64,000 nt of DNA from contig NZ_PDFK01000002.1 in the NCBI RefSeq assembly GCF_002845985.1, positions 806,001-870,000 of the forward strand, in the 5' to 3' direction. The translations under genes and the position numbers were made by a program. The notes under the pieces are model-generated. The model worked only from the letters and a program-made list of their open reading frames with translations, searched no databases and was not told where the DNA came from. The stretch is from Lysinibacillus fusiformis. Lineage in GTDB: Bacteria; Bacillota; Bacilli; Bacillales_A; Planococcaceae. Within the stretch, counting starts at the first letter, position 1; every line of letters begins with the position of its first letter. Positions 4,738 through 19,175 of this stretch are shown one piece after another.

Positions 4738-5928
4738 CTATGATGTATGGACTTTCTTGACAGTAAATAGTGCTATTACCATGAATATGGCACAGCAGGC
4801 AAATAGACTAACTAAAAAAATCCCACCTACCAAATAACCCCAATATTCCACAAGTGAACCAAAAACCGGTGGAATTAAAAATACACCTATGGATGCCACC
4901 ATTATACTAAACCCACTTGCAAAACCACTCATCGATTTTTCTACACTTTCAACAGCTAGCGTCATCCATATACCATTAAAGCCCGCAAGAGAAAAACCTA
5001 TAATTGCTATACACATCACTATAAAAAAGGTGGAATAGGTAAAATACATAAGGATTATCCCATTTGCGCTTAGTATAGTAATGATTAATAATACAGCCCA
5101 TCGATTTTTATTAAAAAATTTATCACTAATAATCCCCCACAACACTCGCCCACTTGCCCCACTAATTTCAGAAATAGCCAAGCATATGCCAGCACTATAA
5201 ATGGGCCAGTCCTTTATTTCATATAAAAATAATATAATGTAGGTGTTAAATGTCATTTGAATACCCATTAAGATGAATGCTGAGCTATTCGTAAAAAAGA
5301 GCCATTTTGAATGAAGGAAAATGCGTAATTGCTGACGTAAAGGCAATTTAGTAGCTATCTCAGTTTGTGAATCTTCTTTTGTTTTTAATACAAAAGGCAT
5401 TATGAAACTAAACATTAATAATACTACTGCCGCTACAGACAATGTATAACGCCAACCAATGAAAGCTACTAATGGAATCAGGACAACACTCGAGCCTGCT
5501 GAACCTAGCGTAATAGACATCTGTTTTAACCCCATTAGCAATGAAACTTGATTTACTGGAAGTATGTTCATAAGGAAACGATTTGTAACAGGATGCATTC
5601 CTCCATAACCCATCCCTGCTAGTACAACAAATACTAAGGCCAACGTATAATTGTCTATCCAAGCAAAGCTTAAAAAGCCTGTTCCAACAATAATCATCAA
5701 ACAAACCATTATTTTACGGGTACTCAATCGATCTGCTAAATAGCCAACTAGCAATGTTGCTATAAATTGACCAATAAAAAGAGCAGTTGGAAGAAATCCT
5801 AACTGCCCTTTATTCAATGATAAGTCTGCACTAATATAGAACATTAGAGGACTAATGCTTCTCCCAACAAAGGCAGTTAAAAATTGAGCAATGATGATCC
5901 ACATTGCAATAAGTTTCATCTGTTGCAT
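4738..5928 (-). CDS. MFS transporter, possibly aromatic acid uptake
   Basis: A 396-residue major facilitator superfamily permease with about 12 hydrophobic segments and the family motif between segments 2 and 3 (GYLADRLSTRK). The substrate cannot be read from sequence. It follows the TRAP transporter and the 3-hydroxyanthranilate genes on the same strand, so uptake of an aromatic acid or export of an intermediate is a guess. The start is unusual: AAAGGTGG lies 12 nt before this ATG but only 5 nt before another ATG (5935) in a different frame, which opens a 27-codon overlapping frame. ATG at 5919 is an alternative start. Confidence 0.8.
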   Translation of the reverse strand: MQQMKLIAMWIIIAQFLTAFVGRSISPLMFYISADLSLNKGQLGFLPTALFIGQFIATLLVGYLADRLSTRKIMVCLMIIVGTGFLSFAWIDNYTLALVFVVLAGMGYGGMHPVTNRFLMNILPVNQVSLLMGLKQMSITLGSAGSSVVLIPLVAFIGWRYTLSVAAVVLLMFSFIMPFVLKTKEDSQTEIATKLPLRQQLRIFLHSKWLFFTNSSAFILMGIQMTFNTYIILFLYEIKDWPIYSAGICLAISEISGASGRVLWGIISDKFFNKNRWAVLLIITILSANGIILMYFTYSTFFIVMCIAIIGFSLAGFNGIWMTLAVESVEKSMSGFASGFSIMVASIGVFLIPPVFGSLVEYWGYLVGGIFLVSLFACCAIFMVIALFTVKKVHTS

Positions 5929-6047
5929 AATCCATCAAAACCACCTTTTACGCTCGATGAGCCAATTCATTTCCACCTAATACAGTGGTCGATTTTTTCA
6001 AGTGTGTTGTGATTAGCCTACTTTAACTATTACTATTAAAGTTGTGG

Positions 6048-6112
6048 TTGATTCCCGCTACGGGATGCTCGTTTTCAGGGCAAGCAGAAGTCGTGCATCC
6101 TCCTCCACAAAT
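6048..6112. repeat. Decayed copy of an intergenic repeat
   Basis: The stretch beginning GTTGATTCCCGCTACGG and running through CGTTTTCAGGGC resembles the left part of the palindromic element at 43157-43276 (GTTGATTTCCGTTCCG ... CCTTTCCAGGG). It looks like a degraded member of the same family, lying between the TRAP operon and the MFS gene. The rest of this spacer shows nothing clear. Confidence 0.4.
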
Positions 6113-6203
6113 AACTAAAAAAATGTAGTATCATATATTAATTGACTATAAAAGCAACCATAAGATAACCTAATATTCTCCTAATTAACGTACCTGCTAC
6201 TCC

Positions 6204-7484
6204 CTACATCCCCAACCATCTTGGTACGAATAATACAAGGTCTGGAATATATGTTAGGAATAGTAGCACGATAAAGGAAATAACAATAAAAGGAAAAACA
6301 CTCTTTACTAGCGTTTCAAACTTCACTTTTGCCATCGATGATACGATGAAAAGTCCTGTCCCTACTGGCGGTGTTAATAAGCCTAACGTTAAGTTAATAC
6401 AAATGATGACTCCAAAATGCACCGGGTCAATATTAAATGCTATTACGAGTGGCATCATGACAGGTACTAGAATAATTAATGCGGCAATTCCATCTAGTAT
6501 CATGCCGATTAGTAACAATGCTAAATTCACTAATAATAAGAATACCCATGGACTTTCTGTAATGTTTAACATATTTTCTACTAACAATTGTGGAATTCGT
6601 TCAAAGGCAATCATCCATCCAAAAATATTGGCCATAATAATTAAATATGTTACTGTAGCTGTATTTGTCACCGTATTGATTAGCATTTTAGGGAGCTTTT
6701 TGATATTTAACTCTCTATAGACAAATAAACCGACAATTACTGCTAGTAAACAAGCGATAGCAGCAGATTCTGTTGCTGTAAATACACCTGTTAGAATACC
6801 TACAACAATTGTAATGGGTATTAATAGTGCTGGGATTACTTTTAATGACTTGCTTCGAATATCTGCCCACGAAGCCCGTTCACTTTTCGGGAATTGTTGT
6901 TTATAGCCCATATAAGAAATAACTAAAATAAAAACAAGACCATAAATAATCCCTGGGAGAATCCCAGCCATAAATAGAGCGCCAACAGATGTACTTGATA
7001 ACGTACCGTAAATAATGAAAATCATACTTGGTGGAATAATAGGTGCGATAATAGAAGATGCTAATGTTATAGACGCTGCGAATTCACGTTTATAGCCTTC
7101 CTTCTCCATTTGCGGTACCATTACTTTACTCATCATTGCAGCTTGAGCATTTGCTGAACCTAGAATCGATGCTAAAAACATATTAGCAATAACTGTCACA
7201 TAGGCCAGCCCTCCCCTAAAATGCCCAAAAAGGACACGAGCAAATTGAACAAGCCTCGTTGTAATACCGCCCTCATTCATAATTTCACCCATTAACATGA
7301 ATAACGGAATCGCTAATAGGCCAAAATTTTCAAGCCCTGAATACATACGTAATGGTGTAGAATCTAATAATGTCACCTGACCATTTAAGATGAAATAAAT
7401 AACTGTCGTAATACCAAGCACCATTGAGATGGGAATACCAATGATAAGTAAAAGAAAGAAAATAACGAGTACAATATAAGTCAT
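6204..7484 (-). CDS. dctM: TRAP transporter large permease, DctM family
   Basis: The large membrane subunit of a tripartite ATP-independent periplasmic transporter; it forms the ion-coupled translocation path. The 426-residue protein is hydrophobic throughout, with about 12 segments and DctM-like blocks such as IPLFMLMGEIMN near the N-terminus, APIIPPSMIFIIYG in the middle and LTPPVGTGLF near the C-terminus. It overlaps the small-subunit gene by 4 bp (ATGA), so translation is probably coupled. Its place at the end of the 3-hydroxyanthranilate operon suggests import of an aromatic carboxylate, since TRAP systems commonly carry organic acids; the substrate is inferred only. Confidence 0.92.
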   Translation of the reverse strand: MTYIVLVIFFLLLIIGIPISMVLGITTVIYFILNGQVTLLDSTPLRMYSGLENFGLLAIPLFMLMGEIMNEGGITTRLVQFARVLFGHFRGGLAYVTVIANMFLASILGSANAQAAMMSKVMVPQMEKEGYKREFAASITLASSIIAPIIPPSMIFIIYGTLSSTSVGALFMAGILPGIIYGLVFILVISYMGYKQQFPKSERASWADIRSKSLKVIPALLIPITIVVGILTGVFTATESAAIACLLAVIVGLFVYRELNIKKLPKMLINTVTNTATVTYLIIMANIFGWMIAFERIPQLLVENMLNITESPWVFLLLVNLALLLIGMILDGIAALIILVPVMMPLVIAFNIDPVHFGVIICINLTLGLLTPPVGTGLFIVSSMAKVKFETLVKSVFPFIVISFIVLLFLTYIPDLVLFVPRWLGM

Positions 7485-7966
7485 GTATTTTCTCCTTCTC
7501 TATTTTTAAGTGTGTCAATTAAATGTGAAAGAAGATGAATTGCTGCAAAAATTAATCCTATAAATACTGCACTATAAGGAATCCACATTGGTAATTGTAA
7601 GGAGCTCGATTTTTGTAGCAACATGGCAGGATTCATCATCCATTTGTAAGCGTAATAGATTAATATAAATAAGAACGCAATCATCATGCAATCCTGAACA
7701 ATTTTAAAAATCCTTTTACTACGCTTAGATACAGCATCATATAAAAATGTAACTGAAGCCTGAGTACCATATTTCAGACCCCAGCTTCCTCCAATAAACG
7801 AAGTCCATATTAATAAGAAAATCGAAACTTCACCAGCCCAAGGGATGGGATCTTTAAAGAAATAACGAAAAATAACCGCAAATATCATTAAGATAGCAAG
7901 CGCAGCCATTAAAATGATCATCAGTAGTTCTTCGATTTTAGTAATAACTTGACTAATTTTCGCCAT
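7481..7966 (-). CDS. dctQ: TRAP transporter small permease, DctQ family
   Basis: The small membrane subunit of the TRAP transporter, a 161-residue protein with four predicted membrane segments, which pairs with DctM. The block WAGEVSIFLLIWTSFIGGSWGLK is typical of the family. The gene lies 16 bp after dctP and overlaps dctM by 4 bp, giving a tight dctP-dctQ-dctM unit at the distal end of the catabolic operon. Confidence 0.9.
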   Translation of the reverse strand: MAKISQVITKIEELLMIILMAALAILMIFAVIFRYFFKDPIPWAGEVSIFLLIWTSFIGGSWGLKYGTQASVTFLYDAVSKRSKRIFKIVQDCMMIAFLFILIYYAYKWMMNPAMLLQKSSSLQLPMWIPYSAVFIGLIFAAIHLLSHLIDTLKNREGENT

Positions 7967-7982
7967 CTAGCCATTCCCCCAT

Positions 7983-9044
7983 TTACTTACGGAATTCATT
8001 AATAAACTGTTTAATTAAAGCAGATTTTGCACTATACTCGGCGTCAAATGCTTCGATTTGCTCTTTAAATACATCTGCCCCCAACTCATAAACAGTCATT
8101 CCTTGACTGGCAAGTTCTTTTTTGAATTCTTCTTCTTGTCCAACTCGTGTTTCTACTGCATAAGCTATTGCTGCTTGTAAGGATTCATTAATGATTTTTT
8201 GAGCATTTTCAGATAATCCATCAAACATTCCCTCATTTGCTACGACAATTGATGGCCATACCATGTGGTTTGTTACAGCTACATACTTGGCTACTTCGGA
8301 GTATTTATTTGTGATTGTCGCATCTAAATCCATATCCATTCCGTCAATAACGCCTGTTTGTAATGCTGAATATACTTCTGGTAATGGTAATCCTTCTGGT
8401 GCAGCTCCCGCATCTTTATAAAATTTTTGGAGCGGTGGACTTGGTGTTACTCGCATTTTTAAACCTGCTAAATCCGAAGCTTTTTTAACTTCTTTTGATT
8501 TCAATACCATCGTACGTTGACCAGCGAAAAGGTAATCCAACCCTTTTAATCCTGTTCCGTCTACTTTTCCTAAAATCTCACGTGCAATATCGGTATGACT
8601 TGCATCTGAAGCTTCTTGTAAATTTTCAAACGTGTATGGTGCGAACCATGCAGCCATCTCAGGTGTGCGCGTACTTAAAAAAGCGGCTGTAATAAAAGCA
8701 AAGTCTATCGAGCCTGCCTCTACTTGTTGTACCATGTCCGCTTCAGTCCCTAATTGACTTGCAGGGTAAATTTCAAGCTCCATTTTGCCATCTGAGCGTG
8801 CCTTTAATTCTTCATTAAATTTTTCAGCAGCTTTATGCCACATATGATCTGTTGATGTAATATGGGCAAGCTTAAATTTCTTCTTTGGAATATCTTCATC
8901 CGAACTAGTTGCTGACACAGCTGATTTATTGTCCGTCTTTGCATCTGTTTCATTTGTTGTGTTTGAGTTACCACAAGCTGCCAAAACGAATAAAAGTGCG
9001 AATAAACAACTAACTAGCATAAACTTTAGCGGTTTTTTTATCAT
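7983..9044 (-). CDS. dctP: TRAP transporter solute receptor, DctP family
   Basis: The extracytoplasmic solute receptor of the TRAP system, 353 residues. A lipoprotein signal with lipobox LAAC (Cys24) and a Ser/Thr/Asp-rich linker indicate anchoring to the outer face of the membrane, as expected in a Gram-positive cell. The mature part has DctP features: KLAHITSTDHMWHKAAEKF near the start, and a central block containing RVTPSPP, in which family members hold the ligand carboxylate with a conserved Arg, then ALQTGVIDGMD. It probably captures an organic acid linked to the adjacent anthranilate-type pathway; the ligand is untested. Confidence 0.9.
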   Translation of the reverse strand: MIKKPLKFMLVSCLFALLFVLAACGNSNTTNETDAKTDNKSAVSATSSDEDIPKKKFKLAHITSTDHMWHKAAEKFNEELKARSDGKMELEIYPASQLGTEADMVQQVEAGSIDFAFITAAFLSTRTPEMAAWFAPYTFENLQEASDASHTDIAREILGKVDGTGLKGLDYLFAGQRTMVLKSKEVKKASDLAGLKMRVTPSPPLQKFYKDAGAAPEGLPLPEVYSALQTGVIDGMDMDLDATITNKYSEVAKYVAVTNHMVWPSIVVANEGMFDGLSENAQKIINESLQAAIAYAVETRVGQEEEFKKELASQGMTVYELGADVFKEQIEAFDAEYSAKSALIKQFINEFRK

Positions 9045-9084
9045 AAAATATCCCCTCTATTTTTGATTTAATATGTTGCATTGG

Positions 9085-9270
9085 TTATGGCTCCGCCTTC
9101 GTCTTTCCACTAATTCCCCAATGAACGGGTGGCACTTCTATTAAAATAACTCTTACACTATCAATTGGAACTCGTGCCGTTTGAACAATGGTAGTTGTAA
9201 CTTCTTGTATAATTTTTTTCTTTTGCTCCACAGACCGTCCTTCTAATAACTGAATTTGAACAATTGGCAT
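9085..9270 (-). CDS. 4-oxalocrotonate tautomerase
   Basis: A 61-residue member of the 4-oxalocrotonate tautomerase family. Numbered from the exposed N-terminal proline, Pro1, Arg11 and Arg39, the known catalytic residues, are all present, while the usual Phe50 is Trp50. The enzyme interconverts 2-hydroxymuconate and 4-oxalocrotonate (2-oxohex-3-enedioate) in meta-cleavage pathways. The order hydratase, acylating dehydrogenase, aldolase, decarboxylase, tautomerase is the dmpEFGHI order, supporting a DmpI-like role. After deamination of 2-aminomuconate it would equilibrate the product before decarboxylation. Confidence 0.88.
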   Translation of the reverse strand: MPIVQIQLLEGRSVEQKKKIIQEVTTTIVQTARVPIDSVRVILIEVPPVHWGISGKTKAEP

Positions 9271-9282
9271 ATTTAGTCCCCG

Positions 9283-10053
9283 CTACTTCACAACTAATGT
9301 TAGCTTGCCAAGTGTCCCATAGTCTGCTTCTATTTCATCACCAGCTTTTACTGGAATTGCATCTGTTATGCCACCTGTTAAAACGAGTTGACCAGGCAAA
9401 ATACCTCTACCTTCTTTTGCTAACATCGTTAATAATTCAATGACCGAATAAATGGGATGACCAAGTACCGCAGCTCCTGTACCATGTAGTTTCTCTTCTC
9501 CATTTTGTTTCAAAATGACTTCTATAGAAGCCCAATCACATGTATAAGGTGAAAATGCTTGCGCACTCAGCCAAATTTTCGATGAAGAAGCATTATCAGC
9601 TATTACATCAGGTAAAGTAAATGAAAAGTTTTTATAGCGACTGTCAATGACTTCAAGTGCTAGAAATACGTTTTCAATCGCATCCCATACTCCTAATGGT
9701 GTTAAATCCGCACCTTGTAGCTCTTTTTTAAAAACAAAGGCTACCTCTGCTTCCACACGTGGATGAATATATTCAGCAGCTATAATTTCATTTGTCCTAA
9801 GATTCATTTGTGAGGTTAAACGCCCATAAATTGGAGAATCCACCCCTACTTGTTGCTGTTTAGCAATGCTTGTTAGACCCATTTTCCAACCGATAAACCG
9901 ATTGTCAGCTGTCATCGTTTTTTCCATACTAATTTTTTGAATCTCATAGGCTTCTTCTACTGTCAAATTTGGTTTTGAGTTAGTAATCTTTTCAACTGCC
10001 TCTTTTGTTGCTTGTGCTTCCGCCACCCGCTCAGCATATTCAAATAAAGACAC
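9283..10053 (-). CDS. 4-oxalocrotonate decarboxylase (DmpH/XylI-like)
   Basis: A 256-residue member of the hydratase/decarboxylase family that decarboxylates 4-oxalocrotonate to 2-oxopent-4-enoate with a divalent metal. It has a paralogue in the same operon (11966-12745). This copy is called the decarboxylase because it shares blocks with XylI/DmpH, namely GWKMGLTS, VDSPIYGRL, GAAVLGHP and LTGGITDAIPV, and because it sits between aldolase and tautomerase, the DmpH position. It ends 12 bp before the tautomerase gene and starts within 1 bp of the aldolase stop codon. Assignment between the two paralogues rests on motifs and synteny. Confidence 0.85.
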   Translation of the reverse strand: MSLFEYAERVAEAQATKEAVEKITNSKPNLTVEEAYEIQKISMEKTMTADNRFIGWKMGLTSIAKQQQVGVDSPIYGRLTSQMNLRTNEIIAAEYIHPRVEAEVAFVFKKELQGADLTPLGVWDAIENVFLALEVIDSRYKNFSFTLPDVIADNASSSKIWLSAQAFSPYTCDWASIEVILKQNGEEKLHGTGAAVLGHPIYSVIELLTMLAKEGRGILPGQLVLTGGITDAIPVKAGDEIEADYGTLGKLTLVVK

Positions 10054-11066
10054 TATGCACTCCCCACTTTCTGTTGTGCAATTTTTTGTGCTACTTCAAT
10101 GATCGTATCCTCTTGTCCACCTACAACATTTAATTTGCCTAACTCTACTAAAATATCTCTAGCATCAACACCCACTTTTTCAGCAGCTATATTGGCATGA
10201 CGTAAAAAGCTTGAATATACGCCTGCATAGCCCATTACTAAACTACCTGTCGTAATATCTTGTGGATGTGGCAAAATATTGGCACGAACATAATCAGCCA
10301 GATCGAGTATTTGGTATAAATCTATGCCTGTTTCAATACCCATGCGATTTAATACTGCGACCAATACCTCAGTTTGTGTATTGCCTGCTCCTGCACCTAA
10401 ACAACAAATACTGCCATCGATACGTGTAGCACCTTCTTGAATCGCTACAAGTGTATTGGCAACAGCCAGAGACAAATTATTATGCGCATGAAAACCAATC
10501 TCAATGTTTAAATGAGCACGTAATAAACGAATACGATTCTGTACATCAGACGGTAGCATAGCCCCTGCTGAGTCCGTAACATACACGGCATCAGCCCCAT
10601 ATGATTCCATTAACAACGCCTGCTCTAATACTTTTTCAGGTGATGCAGAATGTGACATCATTAAAAACCCAAATGCCTCCATCCCTAGTGCTTTCGCTGT
10701 TTCAATATGTTGCTTTGATACATCTGCCTCCGTTACATGTGTAGCAACACGAACAACTCGAGCACCTGCCTCATAAGCCTCTTTCAAATGATGTATTGTG
10801 CCAATTCCAGGAATAAGCAAAACCGTTATTTTAGAATCTCCAGCAACTTCTGCTGCCGCTCTAATTAACGCAATATCATGCTCTTTAGAAAAACCATATT
10901 GAAGGGACGAGCCTCCTAAACCATCTCCATGCGTGACTTCAATATACGGTACACCGGCTTCACTTAATTGCTTCGTTACATAACGAACTTGCTCAGAAGA
11001 AAATTGATGGGCAACCACATGGCTACCATCACGAAGTGCAACCTCTGTTAAATAGATTTGACTCAT
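10053..11066 (-). CDS. 4-hydroxy-2-oxovalerate aldolase (DmpG-like)
   Basis: A 337-residue HMGL-like TIM-barrel aldolase that cleaves 4-hydroxy-2-oxovalerate to pyruvate and acetaldehyde. Visible are the metal/substrate motif LRDGSH near residue 12 and the metal-binding HAHNN segment near 195-199. The C-terminal region resembles the communication domain by which DmpG-type aldolases channel acetaldehyde to their dehydrogenase partner. The gene overlaps the partner gene upstream by 4 bp, consistent with a stoichiometric complex. Confidence 0.93.
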
Positions 11067-11950
11067 CGCACTTCCACCTCCCTAACGCTCATTGTTTTTG
11101 CCATTTCTTCAGCCACCTTCAATCCAGCGGCCGTCATAATATCCAAATTTCCAGCATAGATCGGTAAATAATCTCCCAATCCCTCTACTTCAATAAATAC
11201 GGTAACTTTCTTTCCATCTACAATCGGATCTAGCTTCAAGCGATAACCTGGTACATATTCATTTACTTTTGCGACCATATTTTTTATGGATTTAATAATC
11301 TCTTCCGAATTCGCTTCTTCTTCAAGGAGACATAACACCGTATCACGCATCAATAAAGGTGGCTCTGCTGGGTTTAAAATAATAATTGCCTTTCCTTTTT
11401 TTGCACCGCCAATCAGCTCAATTGCATTGGATGTTGTTTCTGTAAATTCATCGATATTAGCTCGTGTTCCTGGACCTGCACTTTTCGAAGCAATTGTTGC
11501 AACAATTTCAGCGTAATCAACACTTTGTACACGGCTAATGGCGTAGATGATTGGTATCGTCGCCTGACCTCCACACGTAATCATGTTTACAACAGGCTTT
11601 TCCATATGCTCTGTCAAATTCACCGTCGGTACAACAAATGGACCTACAGCGGCTGGCGTTAAATCTATTAGTCTTTTGTTTAAACCTTGTAAAGCTTTCA
11701 CATGAGCAATATGTGCCTTTGCTGATGTTGCATCAAATAAAATATCCGCCAAATGTGGTTGCTCTAGAAATCCTTCAATCCCATTGGAAATCGTCTGAAA
11801 ACCTGCCTCTTGTGCACGTCTTAAGCCATCTGATTCAGGATCAATGCCAATAAGTACTGACATCTCTAAGTACGGAGATCTTTGAATTTTCATCATTAAA
11901 TCCGTACCAATATTACCTGAACCAATAATGCCCACTTTCATTTTTGTCAT
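11063..11950 (-). CDS. Acetaldehyde dehydrogenase, acylating (DmpF-like)
   Basis: Converts acetaldehyde, CoA and NAD+ to acetyl-CoA, taking acetaldehyde from the aldolase. The 295-residue protein starts with a Rossmann motif ([12 protein letters not shown]) and carries the catalytic cysteine in [11 protein letters not shown] near residue 131. The stretch [19 protein letters not shown] is characteristic of the DmpF/BphJ/MhpF family. The 4-bp overlap with the aldolase gene and the adjacent hydratase give the standard lower meta-cleavage module. Confidence 0.94.
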
Positions 11951-11965
11951 GGTAGCTTCCTCCCT

Positions 11966-12745
11966 TTACACAAACTCTAGTTCGACTGTACCTAATAGTT
12001 CACCGAAGTCGGCTGTGAACTTATCACCTTGTTCAGCATCCAATGCTGCCGATAAAGCACCTGATAATATAACTTCTCCTGCTTCAACACCAATATCGAA
12101 ATCTGCTAGACAGTTTACAAGCCAAGCGACACAACTTGCTGGATTGCCTAAAACATCTTCTCCCTTTCCTTCATTCATAAACGCTCCATTTTTATAAAGC
12201 TGCATTTCGATTGCTGGTAAGTCAACATTGAAGACCTCACGTTTCACTTGACCTAGTACGTATTTTGCAGAGGAAGCATTATCTGCAATGGTATCGAGCA
12301 ATTTTATTTGCCAATTGGCAATGCGACTATCTACGATTTCAAGACTAGCTACAATATAATCTGTTGCTTCAAGTACCTCCTTAACAGTGACATTAGGTCC
12401 CTTTAAAGGAGACTTCAGTACAAACGCAATTTCGCCTTCGACTTTCGGCTTTAAATAACTTGATCGCTCGGTTTTTCCTTCTGTAATTTCCATATTCGAT
12501 AAAAGATGCCCATAATCTGGTTCATCCACGTTTAATAGATTTTGCATTGCTAAAGATGTCAAACCAATTTTTTTACCTGTAATTTTATGGCCGTTCAGTA
12601 ACTTCCTATTAACGATTTCAAGTTGAATGGAGTAAGCATCTTTCAATGAAATATCTTTAGCTGATTGAGTAATCGGCTCAATGCCAATGCGTGTTCTTTC
12701 TGCTTCTAATAATTTGTTAGACCATTCAATTAGATTCACTACCAT
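11966..12745 (-). CDS. 2-oxopent-4-enoate hydratase (DmpE/XylJ-like)
   Basis: A 259-residue paralogue of the decarboxylase at 9283-10053; it hydrates 2-oxopent-4-enoate (2-hydroxypenta-2,4-dienoate) to 4-hydroxy-2-oxovalerate. Blocks shared with hydratases such as DmpE include GKKIGLTS, VEGEIAFVL, DTIADNASS, CVAWLVN and GEVILSGAL. It stands between the semialdehyde dehydrogenase and the acylating acetaldehyde dehydrogenase, the DmpE position. In related systems the hydratase and decarboxylase form a complex so that the unstable dienol is not released. A ribosome binding site (GGGGGG) precedes ATG closely. Confidence 0.87.
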   Translation of the reverse strand: MVVNLIEWSNKLLEAERTRIGIEPITQSAKDISLKDAYSIQLEIVNRKLLNGHKITGKKIGLTSLAMQNLLNVDEPDYGHLLSNMEITEGKTERSSYLKPKVEGEIAFVLKSPLKGPNVTVKEVLEATDYIVASLEIVDSRIANWQIKLLDTIADNASSAKYVLGQVKREVFNVDLPAIEMQLYKNGAFMNEGKGEDVLGNPASCVAWLVNCLADFDIGVEAGEVILSGALSAALDAEQGDKFTADFGELLGTVELEFV

Positions 12746-12759
12746 GCTTTCCCCCCAAG

Positions 12760-14226
12760 TTATAATTTAATTGTTACGTTTGAGACCTCGCAGTAGAATT
12801 CAAAGCTGTGTGCGCCACCTTCACGCCCGATTCCGCTATGTTTCATCCCACCAAATGGTGTTCGAAGATCTCTTAAATACCATGTATTTACCCAAACGAT
12901 GCCTGACTCAATTTGACCTGCAACACGATGTGCACGTCTTAAATCATTTGTCCAAATAGTTGCACCTAAGCCGTAATTTGTATCATTTGCACGGGAAATC
13001 ACGTCGTCTTCTGTATCAAAAGGTAATACTGTAACAACTGGGCCAAAAATTTCTTCGCGTACACAACGGTCCTGATCCGTTAAATCGGTAATAATTGTTG
13101 GCTCAATATAGTAGCCTTTATCGATAGTAGCTGGGCGACCACCGCCTGTAAGAATATTGCCACCCTCTTCTCTGGCAATTTGAATGTAACCCATTACTTT
13201 TTCATAATGCTCTTTCCCTACGACAGAGCCGATATCTGTCGTTGCATCAAATGGATCTCCAATTTTTAATTCTTTTGTACGAGCTACAAATTTCTCCACA
13301 AATTCTTTATAAATATCACGTTCTACATATATACGAGAACCACAGAGACACACTTGCCCTTGGTTTGTAAAGCTTGATTTTAACGTTGTTGCAAGAACTT
13401 CATCTAGGTCCGAATCTTTAAAAATAATAGTAGGATTTTTGCCCCCTAATTCAAATGAAACTTTTTTCAATGTAGGGGCAGCAGCCTTCATAATAGTAGT
13501 GCCTGTTTTAGTTTCCCCTGTAAATGTAATAGCATCTACATCAGGGTGTTCTGATAGAAAAGCACCTGCTGAATTCCCACCAAAACCGTGAACTAAATTT
13601 ACAACACCATCTGGTATCCCCGCTTCTTGACATAATTCAACCAAGCGAGTAGCTGTCATTGGTGTAAGCTCCGCCGGTTTCATGACAGCAGTACTACCTG
13701 CTGCTAAGCAAGGGGCTAATTTCCAAGTTAAAAGTAGTAATGGTAAATTCCAAGGATTAATCATAGCCACGACACCTACTGGTCGTGTCACTGAATAATG
13801 AAGTGCCATATTGTCTTGGTTATAAGATTCATTGCCAAGTGAAGTAACGTAATCCGCAAAGAAGTGGAAATTATGTGCTGCACGTTTAATATCCATTTCT
13901 ATCGCTAAATGATACGGTTTGCCTGTATCTATCGTTTCTAAAGCAGCAAGTTCTTCAACATTTTCTAAAATGAGGTCGCCAATACGTCGTAACAGTAGAG
14001 AGCGCTCTTTGACAGTGAATTTTCCCCACGGTCCTTTCAAAGCAGCTTTTGCAGATTGTACTGCTGCATCGACTTCTTCCCTAGTCGCTTCTGCTACCCA
14101 TCCAATGACTTCTTCTGTAGCAGGATTTATATTTTCAAACACTTTCCCATCTATAGCGTCAATGAATTCACCGTTTATGAAATTACGACAATTAATACTT
14201 TTCGTTTTAAACGTTGCATGTTGCAT
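12760..14226 (-). CDS. 2-aminomuconate 6-semialdehyde dehydrogenase
   Basis: A 488-residue NAD-dependent aldehyde dehydrogenase. Motifs seen are MINPWNLPLLL, FTGETKTG (nucleotide binding), FELGGKNP with the general-base Glu, and GQVCLCGSR with the catalytic Cys. Related enzymes oxidise 2-hydroxymuconate or 2-aminomuconate semialdehyde. The adjacent ACMS decarboxylase and aminomuconate deaminase genes favour the amino substrate, as for NbaE or AmnC. ATG at 14226 is chosen because GGGAGTG lies 7 nt upstream; an in-frame GTG directly before it is closer to that site. The MQHATFKTKSINCRNFINGEF start is typical of the family. Confidence 0.9.
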   Translation of the reverse strand: MQHATFKTKSINCRNFINGEFIDAIDGKVFENINPATEEVIGWVAEATREEVDAAVQSAKAALKGPWGKFTVKERSLLLRRIGDLILENVEELAALETIDTGKPYHLAIEMDIKRAAHNFHFFADYVTSLGNESYNQDNMALHYSVTRPVGVVAMINPWNLPLLLLTWKLAPCLAAGSTAVMKPAELTPMTATRLVELCQEAGIPDGVVNLVHGFGGNSAGAFLSEHPDVDAITFTGETKTGTTIMKAAAPTLKKVSFELGGKNPTIIFKDSDLDEVLATTLKSSFTNQGQVCLCGSRIYVERDIYKEFVEKFVARTKELKIGDPFDATTDIGSVVGKEHYEKVMGYIQIAREEGGNILTGGGRPATIDKGYYIEPTIITDLTDQDRCVREEIFGPVVTVLPFDTEDDVISRANDTNYGLGATIWTNDLRRAHRVAGQIESGIVWVNTWYLRDLRTPFGGMKHSGIGREGGAHSFEFYCEVSNVTIKL

Positions 14227-14250
14227 CACTTTTCACTCCCTCAATTATGG

Positions 14251-14296
14251 AGCGACTTTAAGAAAAAGAGTGTTTTACCTTTTTCTCAAAGTCGCT
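14251..14296. other. Hairpin inside the catabolic operon
   Basis: Bases 14251-14268 and 14279-14296 form an 18-bp inverted repeat with one mismatch, between the deaminase and semialdehyde dehydrogenase genes. On the minus (coding) strand it lacks a following T-run. On the plus strand TTTTT follows, but no plus-strand gene leads into it. It could be an mRNA-processing or stabilising stem that separates upper and lower pathway messages. Confidence 0.6.
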
Positions 14297-14302
14297 TTTT
14301 GA

Positions 14303-14764
14303 TTATTCTGAAATTTCCACAACCATTTCTATTTCAATGGCTGTATTATTAGGAAGTTGGGCCATCCCAACTGCTGAACGGGCATGTTTGCCTCGTTCTC
14401 CAAAAACATCCACTAGTAAATCTGATGCACCATTCATAACTTTTGGCTGTTGTGTAAAATCAGGCGTAGAATTGACCATCCCTAAAATTTTTACAATACG
14501 CTTCACCTTCGATAAATCACCTAATTCAGATTTCAATACAGATAACAGGTTAATCATCGATTGGCGACAAGCTGCATAGCCATCATTTACTGTTAAATCT
14601 TCACCTAATTTGCCATGATACTGATCGATACCTTGACCTGATGTAAAAATTAAATTACCTGTTCGTACACAACCAACGTAATTTCCAACTGCTTCCCTTG
14701 GCTCAGCAAGTTCTATTCCAAGCTCTTGCAAGCGTTCTTCAGGCGTTTTCACTTGATTTACCAT
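14303..14764 (-). CDS. RidA-family 2-aminomuconate deaminase
   Basis: A 153-residue RidA/YjgF-family protein with family blocks GNLIFTSGQG, AACRQSMINLLS and ARSAVGMAQLP, where the Arg corresponds to the conserved ligand-binding Arg. Longer members of this type (AmnD, NbaF) deaminate 2-aminomuconate to 4-oxalocrotonate with release of ammonia, which fits exactly between its neighbours' reactions. It overlaps the upstream decarboxylase gene by 26 bp, so translation is coupled. A general imine deaminase role cannot be excluded from sequence, but context argues strongly for the pathway role. Confidence 0.86.
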   Translation of the reverse strand: MVNQVKTPEERLQELGIELAEPREAVGNYVGCVRTGNLIFTSGQGIDQYHGKLGEDLTVNDGYAACRQSMINLLSVLKSELGDLSKVKRIVKILGMVNSTPDFTQQPKVMNGASDLLVDVFGERGKHARSAVGMAQLPNNTAIEIEMVVEISE

Positions 14765-15770
14765 TTAGAACCCTGCTCCTTTCTACATTTAAAAATGACA
14801 TAGCGTTTTCACCTAGAATGGCTTTACGTACTTCTTCTGATAAGTCCAAGGTTTCATCTATGATTTTTCCAGGGTTAATTTCTCTTAGTAAAAATGGATA
14901 GTCTGATCCCATCATAATTTTCTCATGGCCAAAACGTTCAATTAAGTAATGTAGATTTTGTGATTCATATACTAATGAATCAAAGTAAAAATTTTTCGTG
15001 TAGTGGCTTGGAGGATATTTTGTACGTCTAAGGCTTGGCCAAACATCCCAACCTTGGTCTAGACGTGGAAGAATATAAGGGAATGATCCGCCACCATGGG
15101 CAAAACAAACCTTTAAATTCGGACACTTTTCCATTACACCACTCCACACCAAGCTCGCTGCCGCTAAAGCTGTTTCACTCGGCATGCCAATTGTATATAA
15201 AAAGTTATGTCTTGGTGTTCTCTCTTGTGCTAAGGTTTCCCAAGGATGAATAAAGAGCGGCATTTCATATTGTTCTGCCGCTTCAAAAAATGGCAGTAAA
15301 TACTCGCTGTCCAAATTTTCTCCATTGATATTAGTGCCAATTTCAATTCCGGCTAGACCTATTTCTTTGCACCGTTTTAACTCCACAACAGCCGCTTTTG
15401 CATCTTGCAACGGTACAGTTCCTAGGCCGATAAAACGATCTGGATGTGCTTTAACAACATCTGCAATAAAGTTATTTTGGAATTGTGCAAGCTCTACCGC
15501 TTGTTCAATAGGTGCCCAATAAGAAAATGTGACAGGTACGGGTGAAATAACCTGCATATCTACACCCTCATGATCCATATCCTCAATGCGTTTTTTTGTG
15601 TCCCACACTTGATTGGTCACTTCCCTAAATACTTCACCACTTACCATAATATCCGCTCCACAAGAACATTTTTGCTCTAGAACAGGCCACTTATCATTAT
15701 CATACTTACTAGCAAAATTCGGTAAATCTCTCGGATAAATATGTGTATGAAAATCGATTCTCATTGCCAT
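14739..15770 (-). CDS. ACMS decarboxylase (ACMSD), amidohydrolase fold
   Basis: 2-amino-3-carboxymuconate 6-semialdehyde decarboxylase, 343 residues, converts the ring-cleavage product of 3-hydroxyanthranilate to 2-aminomuconate 6-semialdehyde. It belongs to the metal-dependent amidohydrolase superfamily. Visible are DFHTH (His8 and His10 as metal ligands), FIHPWE, the catalytic-His block FAHGGGSFP and the Asp in MMGSDYPF. The start overlaps the dioxygenase stop codon; ATG at 15764 (CAATGAG, stop-start overlap) is a possible alternative two codons downstream. Without this step ACMS would cyclise spontaneously to quinolinate. Confidence 0.92.
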   Translation of the reverse strand: MAMRIDFHTHIYPRDLPNFASKYDNDKWPVLEQKCSCGADIMVSGEVFREVTNQVWDTKKRIEDMDHEGVDMQVISPVPVTFSYWAPIEQAVELAQFQNNFIADVVKAHPDRFIGLGTVPLQDAKAAVVELKRCKEIGLAGIEIGTNINGENLDSEYLLPFFEAAEQYEMPLFIHPWETLAQERTPRHNFLYTIGMPSETALAAASLVWSGVMEKCPNLKVCFAHGGGSFPYILPRLDQGWDVWPSLRRTKYPPSHYTKNFYFDSLVYESQNLHYLIERFGHEKIMMGSDYPFLLREINPGKIIDETLDLSEEVRKAILGENAMSFLNVERSRVLNGKSSENA

Positions 15771-16315
15771 TCACTTACAATCTCAGGCATTACATGTCCA
15801 CAACTATCACATTGACGTAAATCTTTAGAAGCGTTGAAGTAATCAATACCATCTGAAATTTGTTTCCCAATGTTTGTTACTTGTACGCGTAGACGATACA
15901 ATTCATGGTCACATTCACTGCATAGCCATACTAAATCCTCTAACTCGCCTTCTTTACGTTTTCTCTCCACGACAATTCCATATGTGTCTGCAACGCGGTG
16001 TGGTGAATGAGGGACGTTTGCTGGTAGCATAAACATTTCGCCTTCCTTCACTTCAATTACTTCACGTTTACCTTCATCATTAATAACCTCTACAAAACAA
16101 GAACCTTTAATTTGATAGAATAGTTCATCTGATGGGTCAACATGGAATTCACGACGAGCATTAGGGCCACCAAGCAACATAATTAAAAACTCAGAGTCTT
16201 CCCATAGCACTTTATTATTCACTGGCGGTTTTAGTAAATGCTTGTTCTCCTCAATGATTTTAAAAATGTTTTGAGAACGGGCTTGTAATTTACTTACTTG
16301 CGTTGAATTGGACAT
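15761..16315 (-). CDS. nbaC: 3-hydroxyanthranilate 3,4-dioxygenase
   Basis: A cupin-fold extradiol dioxygenase of 184 residues that opens 3-hydroxyanthranilate to ACMS. By alignment from memory with the Cupriavidus enzyme, iron ligands are His58, Glu64 and His103, and substrate-contact residues are Arg54, Arg107 and the Glu of VVERKR. The C-terminus carries two C-x2-C pairs (CSEC and CDSC), the rubredoxin-like iron site of bacterial members. The gene lies directly after the regulator and overlaps the ACMSD gene by 10 bp. This is the most diagnostic gene of the cluster: it fixes the ring-cleavage substrate as 3-hydroxyanthranilate. Confidence 0.95.
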   Translation of the reverse strand: MSNSTQVSKLQARSQNIFKIIEENKHLLKPPVNNKVLWEDSEFLIMLLGGPNARREFHVDPSDELFYQIKGSCFVEVINDEGKREVIEVKEGEMFMLPANVPHSPHRVADTYGIVVERKRKEGELEDLVWLCSECDHELYRLRVQVTNIGKQISDGIDYFNASKDLRQCDSCGHVMPEIVSEWQ

Positions 16316-16340
16316 AATTGAATTCCTCCTAATTTTAAAT

Positions 16341-17096
16341 TTAATAATTTATTGTCATATAGCCTAGTTGTCTCGAAATTAGTTCTGCTGAACGAATTAC
16401 CTCACGAACAATTGCCTGTTTATCCTTACCGTTCATATAACTTTTTTCACCTACTAAGTTAAGGGCTGCTACAACTTGACCATTATAGGTTTTAATAGGT
16501 GCTGCAACCCCATAAGTATTGGACGCATTTTCCTGATCGCTAATGGCATAGCCGTTTTTATAAACTACTTCAAGCTCCTTTTTCAAATCATCTACAGAGG
16601 TGATAGTATTGGCAGTTTGCTTAAACATGCCTTTTTCCAACATCGGCAACATAAATGCTGGATTATACGTTAATAATACTTTCCCAATGCTTGTTGAATA
16701 AGCAGGATAACGAGTCATACCGACAAATGTTGGTACTATATCCGCATGTGGAGACATAGCCTTGTATACAAATCGAACTTCCCCATTATCAAACATCCCA
16801 ATATGTGAAGTACCTTTAAAACGCGCAACCAAATTACTTATTATAGGGCCTGCTTCAAAATTAATTTCTTGGTAATACATAACTTTGTTACTCCACTCAA
16901 GAATTTTCCAGCCTAATCGGTAACGCTTATCACTGCCTTGCAAGAGAATACTTTCTTGACACATTGTTTTTAAGAAATGATGGACTGAACTCGGAGGTAA
17001 ATTTAGCTTTTCTGCGATTTCTTTATTACTTAAAGATGGTTCGCCATCCAAAAATAAATCGATAATGCGTGAGATTTTTTTTACCGATGAAATCAA
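16341..17096 (-). CDS. IclR-family transcriptional regulator
   Basis: A 251-residue IclR-type regulator: N-terminal winged helix-turn-helix (SLSNKEIAEKLNLPPSSVHHFLKTM, about residues 20-45) and C-terminal effector-binding domain (about 75-250) that in this family binds small aromatic or organic acids. The first in-frame start is TTG at 17117, but GGAGGTG is placed 6 nt before TTG at 17096, so the protein probably begins ISSVKKIS after the initiator. The gene lies inside the operon between monooxygenase and dioxygenase, allowing autoregulation. The palindrome at 19145-19165 before the first gene is a candidate site. Confidence 0.9.
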   Translation of the reverse strand: MISSVKKISRIIDLFLDGEPSLSNKEIAEKLNLPPSSVHHFLKTMCQESILLQGSDKRYRLGWKILEWSNKVMYYQEINFEAGPIISNLVARFKGTSHIGMFDNGEVRFVYKAMSPHADIVPTFVGMTRYPAYSTSIGKVLLTYNPAFMLPMLEKGMFKQTANTITSVDDLKKELEVVYKNGYAISDQENASNTYGVAAPIKTYNGQVVAALNLVGEKSYMNGKDKQAIVREVIRSAELISRQLGYMTINY

Positions 17097-17118
17097 ATGC
17101 TTCACCTCCAAGTTCAAT

Positions 17119-18594
17119 TTATACTGTTTGTTTCTCGCCTACATCTTCTTTCGCAAGAATGGATTCAACTAAATCAAAGGAGTACCGTTTCTTAAATTTA
17201 TTGTAGTAAATAGCACGTTTCCGTATTGGATCTCCTGTATAATAGCGTTCGTATTGAAGCGCTCTCATACCAAACCCTTCACCACATAAATCCCAGGCTA
17301 GCTTAAAGATTTTCATTCTTAGTTCTGCATCTACACCTTCTCGTCCACCATAATGACGATCAATGCTTGGACGAAGCTCTGGATTTAAGAAATCAGCTTC
17401 AGTTGGCATCATTAGCAAACCGCCTGCACCAATTGTTTGCATGACTTCAATGGCTCTCGGATATATTTCTGGCATCATGCCGCGAATGGTCTCTAAAGCA
17501 TCTGGATTTAATCGCGCTTCACCATGCTCTGTTACCGTAAATTCATGCTCCGCTGTTCGAATCAATGCACGAATGACTTCTACATATTGCACTAATTCGC
17601 CGAGATCACGTTGCACATTTAAATATTGATCTACACCAATCGAATCAGCAACCTTACAAGCTACCTCTACAGCAAATGCCAGTTTAATGTATCCTCTAAC
17701 CCCTGACTGATGTGCGGGCTGTTCAGCAATACCTGTCATTGGATACAGCAAGTTCGCAGCCTCAACGTTGTTATATAAAAACACACGATCCCATGGTACT
17801 AATACATCTTCAAAAATGAGTAGTGCATCCATTTCCTCATAGCGAGAAGCCAGTGGATGATCGAATGTTGAACGTGTACCATCTTGAACGGGTTCACGAC
17901 AAATAATTTTTAACCCTTTCACATCAATCGGTACAGCAAAAGCTAATGCATAACGCTCGTCTCCTGGTACAAATCCTGGGTATGAATAGATAATGACTTC
18001 ATCCGTAAACGCCGCTAATGTTGCTAGCATTTTTGCTCCGCGGACAACTAATCCATCAGGACGTTCTTCTACTACACCTAAGTGCGTAAACTTATCTGTC
18101 TGTTCATGTGATGCTTTACTTCGGTCATTTTGTGGATTCACAATGGCATGAGTTAAGAACACATCATTATCTCGTATATAGCGATAATAAGCTTCAATAT
18201 TCTTAGCCCAATCTTGGTTGTATTTCGCCAAGAACCAAGAATTTTGTGCTAAAGAAGTTACCACTGTATTTAAAAAATCTGGTGTTCTCCCCATCAAGCC
18301 AAAAGTTTGCCGAGCTACCACTTCAAAAGCTTTACTACGTTTCATAATGTCTTCGTAGGATTTTGCAAAAAGGAATGAAGTGGCTACACGCTCCCCTGTT
18401 TCATCACATACATGCGTTAAATCTTCTTGATATTTTGGATCATGTTGTAAATCATATAACTTTGCGATTTCTTTAATTGGTTGTTGAAAATAGGGTTCAT
18501 CGTAAACACTCTCTACTAAACGACCATTTAGCCATACTTCCGGGTTTCTTGACTTTAATGCATCCATAAATTGTTGCCCTGTTCTAATTCCCAT
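17119..18594 (-). CDS. FADH2-dependent monooxygenase (HpaB family), candidate anthranilate 3-hydroxylase
   Basis: A 491-residue member of the HpaB/HpaH two-component flavin monooxygenase family, which uses reduced flavin supplied by a partner reductase to hydroxylate aromatic rings. Family blocks include GRTPDFLNT near 105, [13 protein letters not shown] near 145, [12 protein letters not shown] near 195 and [11 protein letters not shown] near 270. HpaB members often act on 4-hydroxyphenylacetate or phenols. Here the next genes degrade 3-hydroxyanthranilate, and a homologous system in Geobacillus thermodenitrificans converts anthranilate to 3-hydroxyanthranilate, so that is the likeliest activity. 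It lies 26 bp after the reductase gene. Confidence 0.85.
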
Positions 18595-18620
18595 AATTAA
18601 TAATCCCCTCTACTAAATAA

Positions 18621-19091
18621 CTATTGTTGTATGAACTGTTTTGTCGAGCCCATCTTGCCTTCAAAAAATGTAAGCGCTTCACTATTAGTGCGTCCAAAAT
18701 TAAGGATTTCTCCTATAAATAAAACATGGTCTCCCGCATCCACTTCTTTCCATGGCTTACATTCGATAAAAGCACAAACATCTTCAATTTTTGGAGCTAT
18801 ACCATCTTTAATCCATGTAATTTCAAGCCCCTCTTGTTTACGTCCTGCAAACTGCCATGCTATAGACTCCTGTTGATCTGATAAAATATTAATTGTAAAT
18901 GCATTGTTTTTCATTTGAGATAATGCATTTGCTTTTTTATCAATAGATACTAGTGCTAGAGCAGGCTCTAACGAAACTGAAGTAAATGAGTTCACTGTAA
19001 TCCCATTAATCCCCACACCATCAAACCAAGTAACGACCGTCACACCTGTAGGAAATTTTCCAAATGTTTGTCTAAGTAATTTTGTATCCAT
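18621..19091 (-). CDS. Flavin reductase (HpaC family) for the monooxygenase
   Basis: A 156-residue flavin reductase-like FMN-binding protein, the partner that supplies FADH2 (or FMNH2) using NAD(P)H. Blocks include FPTGVTVVTW, GITVNSFTSVSLEPALALVSIDK, FAGRKQEGL and GDHVLFIGEI, all typical of HpaC-like reductases. It is the first gene of the operon: a good AAAGGGGGG site lies 9 nt before ATG, and a promoter/operator region lies within 100 bp upstream. Adjacent HpaB- and HpaC-type genes form a standard two-component system. Confidence 0.9.
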   Translation of the reverse strand: MDTKLLRQTFGKFPTGVTVVTWFDGVGINGITVNSFTSVSLEPALALVSIDKKANALSQMKNNAFTINILSDQQESIAWQFAGRKQEGLEITWIKDGIAPKIEDVCAFIECKPWKEVDAGDHVLFIGEILNFGRTNSEALTFFEGKMGSTKQFIQQ

Positions 19092-19144
19092 TTATAGCAC
19101 CCCCCTTTAATTTATTATCAGTATCATAACAACTTCTCTTCCCC

Positions 19145-19175
19145 TTGAAATGCATTATATTTCAAATAGTGAAAT
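19145..19175. promoter_or_regulatory. Promoter and candidate IclR operator of the catabolic operon
   Basis: A perfect palindrome TTGAAAT-N7-ATTTCAA (19145-19165) is followed by another half-site TGAAAT (19170-19175). On the minus strand the palindrome's spacer contains part of a TATAAT (19154-19159), 63 bp before the reductase start codon, while no good -35 hexamer lies 16-18 bp away. A weak -35 with an overlapping palindrome fits a regulated promoter. Binding by the operon's IclR protein is inferred. Confidence 0.45.

Follow-up and report, generated by a model that had tools for sequence, protein, structure and literature searches.

The window analysed here is a stretch of 64,000 nucleotides from the genome of Lysinibacillus fusiformis (G000:C12:806001-870000; the genome is 4.58 Mb in 25 contigs). 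It contains a gene cluster that is predicted to serve the catabolism of anthranilate by way of 3-hydroxyanthranilate. All of the genes that a sequence-only reading had named here are present, on one strand (minus), and span positions 19091 to 6204. In the order of transcription they encode HpaC, HpaB, IclR, 3-hydroxyanthranilate dioxygenase (HAO), 2-amino-3-carboxymuconate 6-semialdehyde decarboxylase (ACMSD), a RidA-type protein, aminomuconate semialdehyde dehydrogenase (AMSDH), DmpE, DmpF, DmpG, DmpH, DmpI, DctP, DctQ and DctM; an MFS transporter gene follows. The genes and the models that identify them are:

18621..19091, minus strand: HpaC-type flavin reductase (PF01613, 112.6 bits; NCBIfam reductase models below their cut-offs)
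17119..18594, minus strand: HpaB-type flavin adenine dinucleotide (FAD) monooxygenase, predicted oxygenase component of an anthranilate 3-monooxygenase (PF11794 and PF03241)
16341..17117, minus strand: IclR-family regulator (PF09339 and PF01614)
15761..16315, minus strand: HAO, 3-hydroxyanthranilate 3,4-dioxygenase of the NbaC type (TIGR03037, 227.8 bits, cut-off 145.95; NF009763, 231.6 bits; both over cut-off)
14739..15770, minus strand: ACMSD (PF04909; ACMSD structures, best E 7.6e-87)
14303..14764, minus strand: RidA/YjgF-family protein, predicted 2-aminomuconate deaminase (PF14588, PF01042; TIGR00004 below cut-off)
12760..14229, minus strand: AMSDH, 2-aminomuconate 6-semialdehyde dehydrogenase (structure 4i1w, E 1.5e-163; TIGR03216, 674.5 bits, cut-off 693.25)
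11966..12745, minus strand: DmpE-like 2-oxopent-4-enoate hydratase (best model TIGR03220, 270.8 bits, below cut-off)
11063..11950, minus strand: DmpF, acylating acetaldehyde dehydrogenase (TIGR03215, 462.1 bits, over cut-off)
10053..11066, minus strand: DmpG, 4-hydroxy-2-oxovalerate aldolase (TIGR03217, 500.4 bits, over cut-off)
9283..10053, minus strand: DmpH-like 4-oxalocrotonate decarboxylase (best model TIGR03218, 228 bits, below cut-off)
9085..9270, minus strand: DmpI-like 4-oxalocrotonate tautomerase, 61 amino acids (PF01361, 59.3 bits; TIGR00013, 57.5 bits, and NF002571, 56.9 bits, over cut-off)
7983..9044, minus strand: DctP, TRAP solute-binding protein (PF03480; TIGR00787 and NF037995 over cut-off)
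7481..7966, minus strand: DctQ, TRAP small permease (PF04290)
6204..7484, minus strand: DctM, TRAP large permease (TIGR00786, 409.2 bits, over cut-off)
4738..5928, minus strand: MFS transporter, probable last member of the operon (PF07690)

From HpaC to DctM, neighbouring genes overlap by up to 26 bases or are separated by up to 73 bases, and the close spacing on one strand that had been proposed is thus borne out. The lower pathway, described in the same reading as dmpEFGHI-like, is complete, including DmpI. An apparent gap of 238 bases had left room for the view that DmpI is absent; this is ruled out, because the 61-residue tautomerase reading frame, shorter than the 80-residue minimum of the list of open reading frames, divides that gap into 12 and 40 bases. 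The DmpI sequence scores below the cut-off of the DmpI model NF041920. It begins with MP, and so has the proline after the initial methionine that plays a role in the tautomerase family.

The curated NCBIfam cut-offs are exceeded by HAO, DmpF, DmpG, the tautomerase and the large permease and solute-binding protein of the TRAP system, and all of the operon proteins exceed the Pfam cut-offs of their broad families. HAO also matches the structure 1yfu (E 4.5e-42). For proteins under the NCBIfam cut-offs, and for ACMSD, which has no NCBIfam match at E 0.001, roles were taken from the best model, the best solved relative and the position; the best solved relative of AMSDH, 4i1w, is itself a 2-aminomuconate 6-semialdehyde dehydrogenase, and the deaminase role of the RidA-type protein comes from its place in the operon. 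A complete route from 3-hydroxyanthranilate to pyruvate and acetyl-CoA, as had been claimed, is supported by family membership, by linkage and by an enzyme reported from Geobacillus thermodenitrificans NG80-2, discussed below.

The same genes recur together in other genomes. A set of 93 loci was assembled from 79 named contigs, drawn from the best 80 of 82 matches, and from 14 of 16 stretches chosen for HpaB, HAO or kynureninase (KynU); the other two, L120 and L134, are not among the 93. The loci are related, and the counts take each as independent. In 80 of the 93, HpaB and HAO occur together. The exact order HpaC-HpaB-IclR-HAO-ACMSD-RidA-AMSDH-DmpE-F-G-H-DctP-Q-M is found in six, which belong to Ureibacillus acetophenoni, Lysinibacillus odysseyi, three Solibacillus and one further genome. 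The recurrence of this order, together with the pairing of HpaB and HAO, argues that the arrangement is not due to chance. A relative of DmpI is present in 36 of the 93 loci (some stretches end too early to show one), which is consistent with a step that may be dispensable in a route that passes through the deaminase.

HpaB belongs to a Bacillales subfamily that is tied to HAO. At E 1e-140 or better, 23 of the family's 261 genomes have it, the present one included, and all 23 fall among the 28 that have HAO over its cut-off (compared by eye). Within the genus, at the same threshold, only the window's own species has it (2 genomes). In a sample of the class, 29 of 398 genomes (again with this one) match HpaB at E 1e-180, in 12 of 146 genera. 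The HpaB loci of the named-genome scan are nearly all Bacillales by name, with identities of 63 to 88% among the best 80 of 82 matches, and all HpaB relatives in plasmid records (211 records) are below 60% identity.

The best solved relative of HpaB is TtHpaB (2yyg, E 1e-115), for which the roles of Arg100, Tyr104, His142, Ser197 and Thr198 in the handling of 4-hydroxyphenylacetate are set out in the relevant part of PMC10537072. The catalytic arginine and histidine are retained in the window's protein and in its subfamily, but the rest of this residue set is not. Phe107 occupies the place of Tyr104, with phenylalanine in all 87 ungapped relatives (two more are gapped), and the Ser-Thr pair, which holds the carboxylate of 4-hydroxyphenylacetate in TtHpaB, is Tyr-Pro in the window and Phe/Tyr-Pro in 89 of 89 relatives. 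A second HpaB of the same genome, 33-34% identical to that of the window, has a tyrosine at the Tyr104 place. Six loci (L063, L083, L086, L088, L097 and L103) have an HpaB of the subfamily with Crp-type genes and no dioxygenase within the stretch examined; their ungapped HpaB members keep the same active-site residues.

Two arrangements can be distinguished among the 80 loci with both HpaB and HAO. An IclR gene is present in 42, of which 25 have a detected HpaC, 3 a RibF-like gene and none a flavin mononucleotide (FMN) reductase, while 15 have none of the three. The 38 loci that lack IclR have Crp-type genes in 34 cases, FMN reductase in 25, a RibF-like gene in 23 and HpaC in none. TRAP genes occur in 45 of the 80, and the sequence-only reading, which had taken the combination of an internal IclR gene and a TRAP transporter to be less described, is not borne out as to rarity in genomes. 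The window has HpaC, IclR and the TRAP importer at the places that FAD synthetase, FMN reductase and Crp-type genes fill in other loci, and its first 26,000 bases hold no Crp-, RibF- or FMN-reductase-like stretch.

The IclR protein, whose best NCBIfam model is TIGR02431 (PcaR/PcaU/PobR; 106.4 bits, below cut-off), has a candidate site of action upstream of HpaC:

19159..19175, minus strand: predicted IclR operator ATTTCACTATTTGAAAT, a 17-bp palindrome of the form ATTTCA-N5-TGAAAT, identified by its co-occurrence with IclR
19123..19151, minus strand: predicted promoter with a weak -35 box ATTTCA (19151-19146), a 17-base spacer and a -10 box TATGAT (19128-19123)

The palindrome was found and counted in the same loci, namely the 93 and the first 22,000 bases of the window, and the presence of IclR and HpaC was scored by tblastn anywhere in each stretch. 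Of the 48 loci with IclR, 44 have the exact palindrome; none of the 46 that lack IclR has it (93 loci plus the window). After single-base shuffling, 0.35 would be expected over all 94 loci together. The sites are found upstream of HpaC or HpaB and, in some loci, of IclR, HAO or KynU too; no site falls inside any gene tested. L131, with IclR and HAO and without HpaB, has the site, and L123, with HAO and KynU and neither IclR nor HpaB, does not. Among 13 further loci, 12 have no detected IclR and no site, and one has a site and no IclR detected within its short flank. The window holds a single exact copy; with up to two mismatches allowed it has 15 against 12.4 expected, which is the chance level. 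The whole genome has the exact pattern at three places, the other two being within open reading frames. The palindrome is likely to be the operator of the IclR protein.

A common promoter register follows the palindrome. At 31 hand-picked sites a -35-like box lies 7 bases after it (mean 3.03 of 6 matches, shuffle maximum 2.55) and, a further 23 bases on and so 30 from the palindrome, a -10-like box (mean 3.55 of the 6 consensus positions, shuffle maximum 3.00), as judged by 500 shuffles of the stretch after the palindrome only. The highest raw -10 matches (up to 4.2 of 6) fell within the palindrome itself and were set aside. Individual sites are off by a base, and some, among them L045 and one site of L122, fit poorly. 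An alternative -10 box, TATAAT overlapping the end of the palindrome, was rejected: TATAAT or TATACT occurs there in 2 of 33 sites, and the shared box is 30 bases on. A simple scan for terminators and promoters found no excess over shuffles. A palindrome lying a short way ahead of the -35 box is more in keeping with an activator than with a repressor, and the IclR protein is most likely a ligand-dependent activator.

The transport genes differ among the 80 loci with HpaB and HAO: within the stretches examined, 44 have TRAP genes only, 12 an MFS gene of an aromatic-acid type only, one has both and 23 have neither. This MFS family is close to aromatic acid/H+ symporters (349 bits, under the cut-off of 418.55). 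In the Peribacillus-type loci L032, L033, L034 and L036 such a gene follows DmpH, at the place of the window's TRAP genes. The most telling hint of an aromatic acid as cargo of the TRAP system, which would most likely be anthranilate, is this exchange of TRAP and MFS genes between loci.

The window's own MFS gene lies beyond DctM and shows that the span first proposed, 6204 to 19091, which does enclose all of the genes named for it, is too short at one end. All 7 near relatives compared (five of one genus) have it directly behind DctM in the same orientation, and it probably belongs to the operon. The distance from DctM is 275 bases in the window; in the near relatives the aligned stretches are about 7 to 36 bases apart. 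Three more distant loci extend beyond DctM (L030, L037 and L041); there the next open reading frame is on the other strand and no relative of the window's MFS gene scores above 80 bits. The 275-base stretch (window 5929-6203) is a single copy in the genome; it holds no interpretable open reading frame and folds no better than its shuffles.

Several known systems resemble this operon. The enzyme GTNG_3160 of NG80-2, a member of the 4-hydroxyphenylacetate 3-hydroxylase family, is described in the pertinent passages of PMC5698749, PMC10816480 and PMC4539516 as converting anthranilate to 3-hydroxyanthranilate; PMC10816480 gives its UniProt entry as A4IT51. NG80-2, as reviewed, and the window have in common an HpaB-family FAD hydroxylase, 3-hydroxyanthranilate as intermediate and meta-cleavage, all in one gene cluster. 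The NG80-2 cluster is reported to have an FAD reductase and a riboflavin kinase/FMN adenylyltransferase, whereas the window, in which HpaB is likewise clustered with HAO and the lower meta pathway, has an HpaC-type reductase and, in positions 1-26000, no match to a RibF-like gene. It is the Crp-type loci, with their RibF-like FAD synthetase, MsuE-like FMN reductase and Crp-type genes, that resemble the NG80-2 cluster as reviewed. The chemistry does not call for a RibF gene in the cluster, since cells have a RibF for general use. The original study of the NG80-2 anthranilate pathway is reportedly that of Liu et al. 2010.

The nba genes for 2-nitrobenzoate in Pseudomonas encode an NbaC-type dioxygenase, ACMSD, the aminomuconate steps and a lower pathway, as in the window; to our knowledge the nba system starts from 2-nitrobenzoate without a two-component hydroxylase, and neither a TRAP system nor a regulator of this kind is part of it. 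The amn genes for 2-aminophenol, as outlined in part of PMC4539516, encode aminomuconate dehydrogenase and deaminase, then decarboxylase, hydratase and aldolase; these steps are alike, but the amn route starts from 2-aminophenol and ACMSD is not among the steps described in that passage. Closest are the operons of U. acetophenoni, L. odysseyi and the three Solibacillus (L025-L029), which have the window's order with HpaC, IclR and TRAP, and in which the gap between DctM and the MFS gene is the smaller one given above. An anthranilate 3-monooxygenase gene is named in a Bacillus cereus annotation in PMC12772314, in which the string '3-hydroxyanthranil' does not occur. Searches of the open-licence literature, a scope that leaves most subscription papers outside, found no description of the IclR and TRAP variant of the pathway, and nothing on Lysinibacillus with anthranilate and 3-hydroxyanthranilate or on IclR with 3-hydroxyanthranilate. 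The pathway itself is of a type already described, and its arrangement is common among genomes; what is new are the variant parts and the predicted operator.

Taken together, it is very probable that this is a catabolic operon for anthranilate, controlled by IclR through the 17-bp palindrome and possibly fed by kynurenine as well. The gene content, order and linkage and the conserved palindrome are direct observations; for substrates, direction of transport and regulation, the scheme that we infer is as follows. The TRAP importer, and perhaps the MFS carrier too, would take up an aromatic acid, most likely anthranilate. HpaC would reduce flavin with NAD(P)H, and HpaB would use the reduced FAD and O2 to convert anthranilate to 3-hydroxyanthranilate, anthranilate being the substrate that family membership, linkage and the enzyme reported from NG80-2 support for this pair. 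HAO would open the ring and ACMSD would then decarboxylate the product. AMSDH would oxidize the semialdehyde to 2-aminomuconate, from which the RidA-type protein would release ammonia to give 4-oxalocrotonate. DmpH, DmpE, DmpG and DmpF, with DmpI as the tautomerase, would complete the conversion to pyruvate and acetyl-CoA. IclR would act on the operon through the palindrome just upstream of the -35 box, and imported kynurenine may be converted to anthranilate inside the cell by a distant kynureninase.

Several observations weigh against this assignment. HpaC, HpaB, IclR, RidA, AMSDH, DmpE and DmpH are all under the curated NCBIfam cut-offs, and GTNG_3160 was likened to the window's HpaB by its reported function, in the passages cited, and not by sequence identity. 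The pair of HpaB and HAO is missing from 13 of the 93 loci, some of which have HpaB alone. Four of the 48 IclR loci (L031, L121, L126 and L130) lack the palindrome, and the three exact copies in the genome are not clearly more than the two of a backward control. The substrate of the TRAP system is one that we infer. Finally, three relatives of the same genus have kynureninase, a permease and HAO and no HpaB at E 1e-140, so that HAO can be fed in another way; our guess is that the substrate enters there as 3-hydroxykynurenine. In these relatives (L123, L168 and L169) a TetR gene, kynureninase and permease accompany a cluster that runs from HAO to DmpH without an HpaB gene.

The source of the anthranilate is the point on which another explanation has most to offer. 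The sequence-only reading held that no kynureninase is present and that anthranilate is a likelier entry than tryptophan or kynurenine. The first statement is true of the window, but the same genome has a kynureninase at G000:C12:760313-761512 (402 bits, cut-off 246.4), about 51 kb from DctM and 62 kb from HpaB. In the second, anthranilate as entry is supported, and tryptophan is less plausible because tryptophan dioxygenase (PF03301) and kynurenine formamidase (arylformamidase, TIGR03035) were not found in the genome; kynurenine, given the genomic kynureninase, is a second plausible source. It could even be the main physiological substrate: KynU would cleave it to alanine and anthranilate, alanine dehydrogenase would recycle the alanine and the operon would finish the anthranilate. 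The KynU gene adjoins that of alanine dehydrogenase, and close to the two are genes for a TetR protein and an amino-acid permease. Kynureninase is found in 18 of the 93 loci; in L121, L122, L128 and L129 it lies inside the HpaB/HAO cluster, and several Crp-type loci have it adjacent to DmpH. In the family, KynU is over its cut-off in 27 of 28 genomes with HAO and in 160 of 233 without (p 0.0013), and in the genus in 5 of 5 with HAO and 3 of 27 without (p 0.0003), genomes being taken as independent in both. These counts ignore descent, however, and KynU is also common without HAO; the gene is distant here (50-60 kb) and has no palindrome nearby (the best, with two mismatches in L120, is at the chance level), and the TRAP genes suggest that the substrate is the acid itself. 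Kynurenine as main substrate is a serious possibility that falls somewhat short of an even chance. It is compatible with the anthranilate operon proposed here; the difference is in what the cell meets outside.

Degradation of external 3-hydroxyanthranilate, or of 2-nitrobenzoate by an nba-like entry, with HpaB and HpaC in a side reaction, is unlikely. Such an entry would suit the NbaC-type HAO and the 5 of 28 HAO genomes of the family that are without HpaB at E 1e-140, but HpaB and HAO share a locus too regularly (80 of 93), and neither a nitroreductase nor a mutase appears in the general annotation of the operon genes, with no model search aimed at either. Least probable of all is that the true substrate of HpaB is a phenol, for example 4-hydroxyphenylacetate, and that the gene stands beside the dioxygenase by coincidence: TtHpaB is indeed a 4-hydroxyphenylacetate 3-hydroxylase, and AMSDH and DmpE match the homoprotocatechuate models HpaE (605 bits) and HpaH (244 bits), below their own best models, but HpaB does not reach the cut-off of the corresponding model TIGR02309 (439.4 bits against 480.2), Tyr104 and the residues for the 4-hydroxyphenylacetate tail are replaced throughout the subfamily, HpaB co-occurs with HAO in 23 of 23 genomes, and HAO, over its cut-off, is the one ring-cleaving gene seen among the annotated genes of the operon.

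Some observations made along the way concern the history of these loci. The best relative of AMSDH is at least 65% identical in 22 of the 93 loci and lower in 61 (mostly 46-49%), a split that is sharper than for the neighbouring genes; the AMSDH gene is perhaps of two origins. In Bacillus sp. FJAT-14578 (L037 and L045) and Priestia abyssalis (L041 and L048) the operon is split over two places in the genome, each with a copy of HpaB, one with HAO and TRAP genes and the other with ACMSD to DmpH. Elsewhere in the genome of the window, positions 5921-12295 of L136 (G000:C12:781000-798000) hold open reading frames of 603 residues, of 271 residues (PAPS-reductase-like) and of 1133 residues (ATPase-like), as judged by eye; they resemble a defence island, and the two that were scanned have no NCBIfam match.

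The anthranilate operon can be placed in a wider proposal, for and against which we find the evidence evenly balanced: that a hitherto undescribed IclR activator of the Bacillales drives the catabolism of anthranilate and kynurenine through ATTTCA-N5-TGAAAT, 7 bases before a weak -35 box, and that in one branch HpaC, IclR and a TRAP importer of anthranilate have taken the place of the FAD synthetase, FMN reductase and Crp-type regulation seen in clusters of the NG80-2 type. If this is right, it makes a defined set of enzymes, a possible importer and a short operator available for immediate testing, and would help to correct annotations in which an enzyme of this HpaB type is named 4-hydroxyphenylacetate hydroxylase. 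Anthranilate is a product of tryptophan breakdown, and in many bacilli the pathway connects such products with central metabolism. If the proposal is true, bacteria that lack tryptophan dioxygenase would live on kynurenine and anthranilate released by others.

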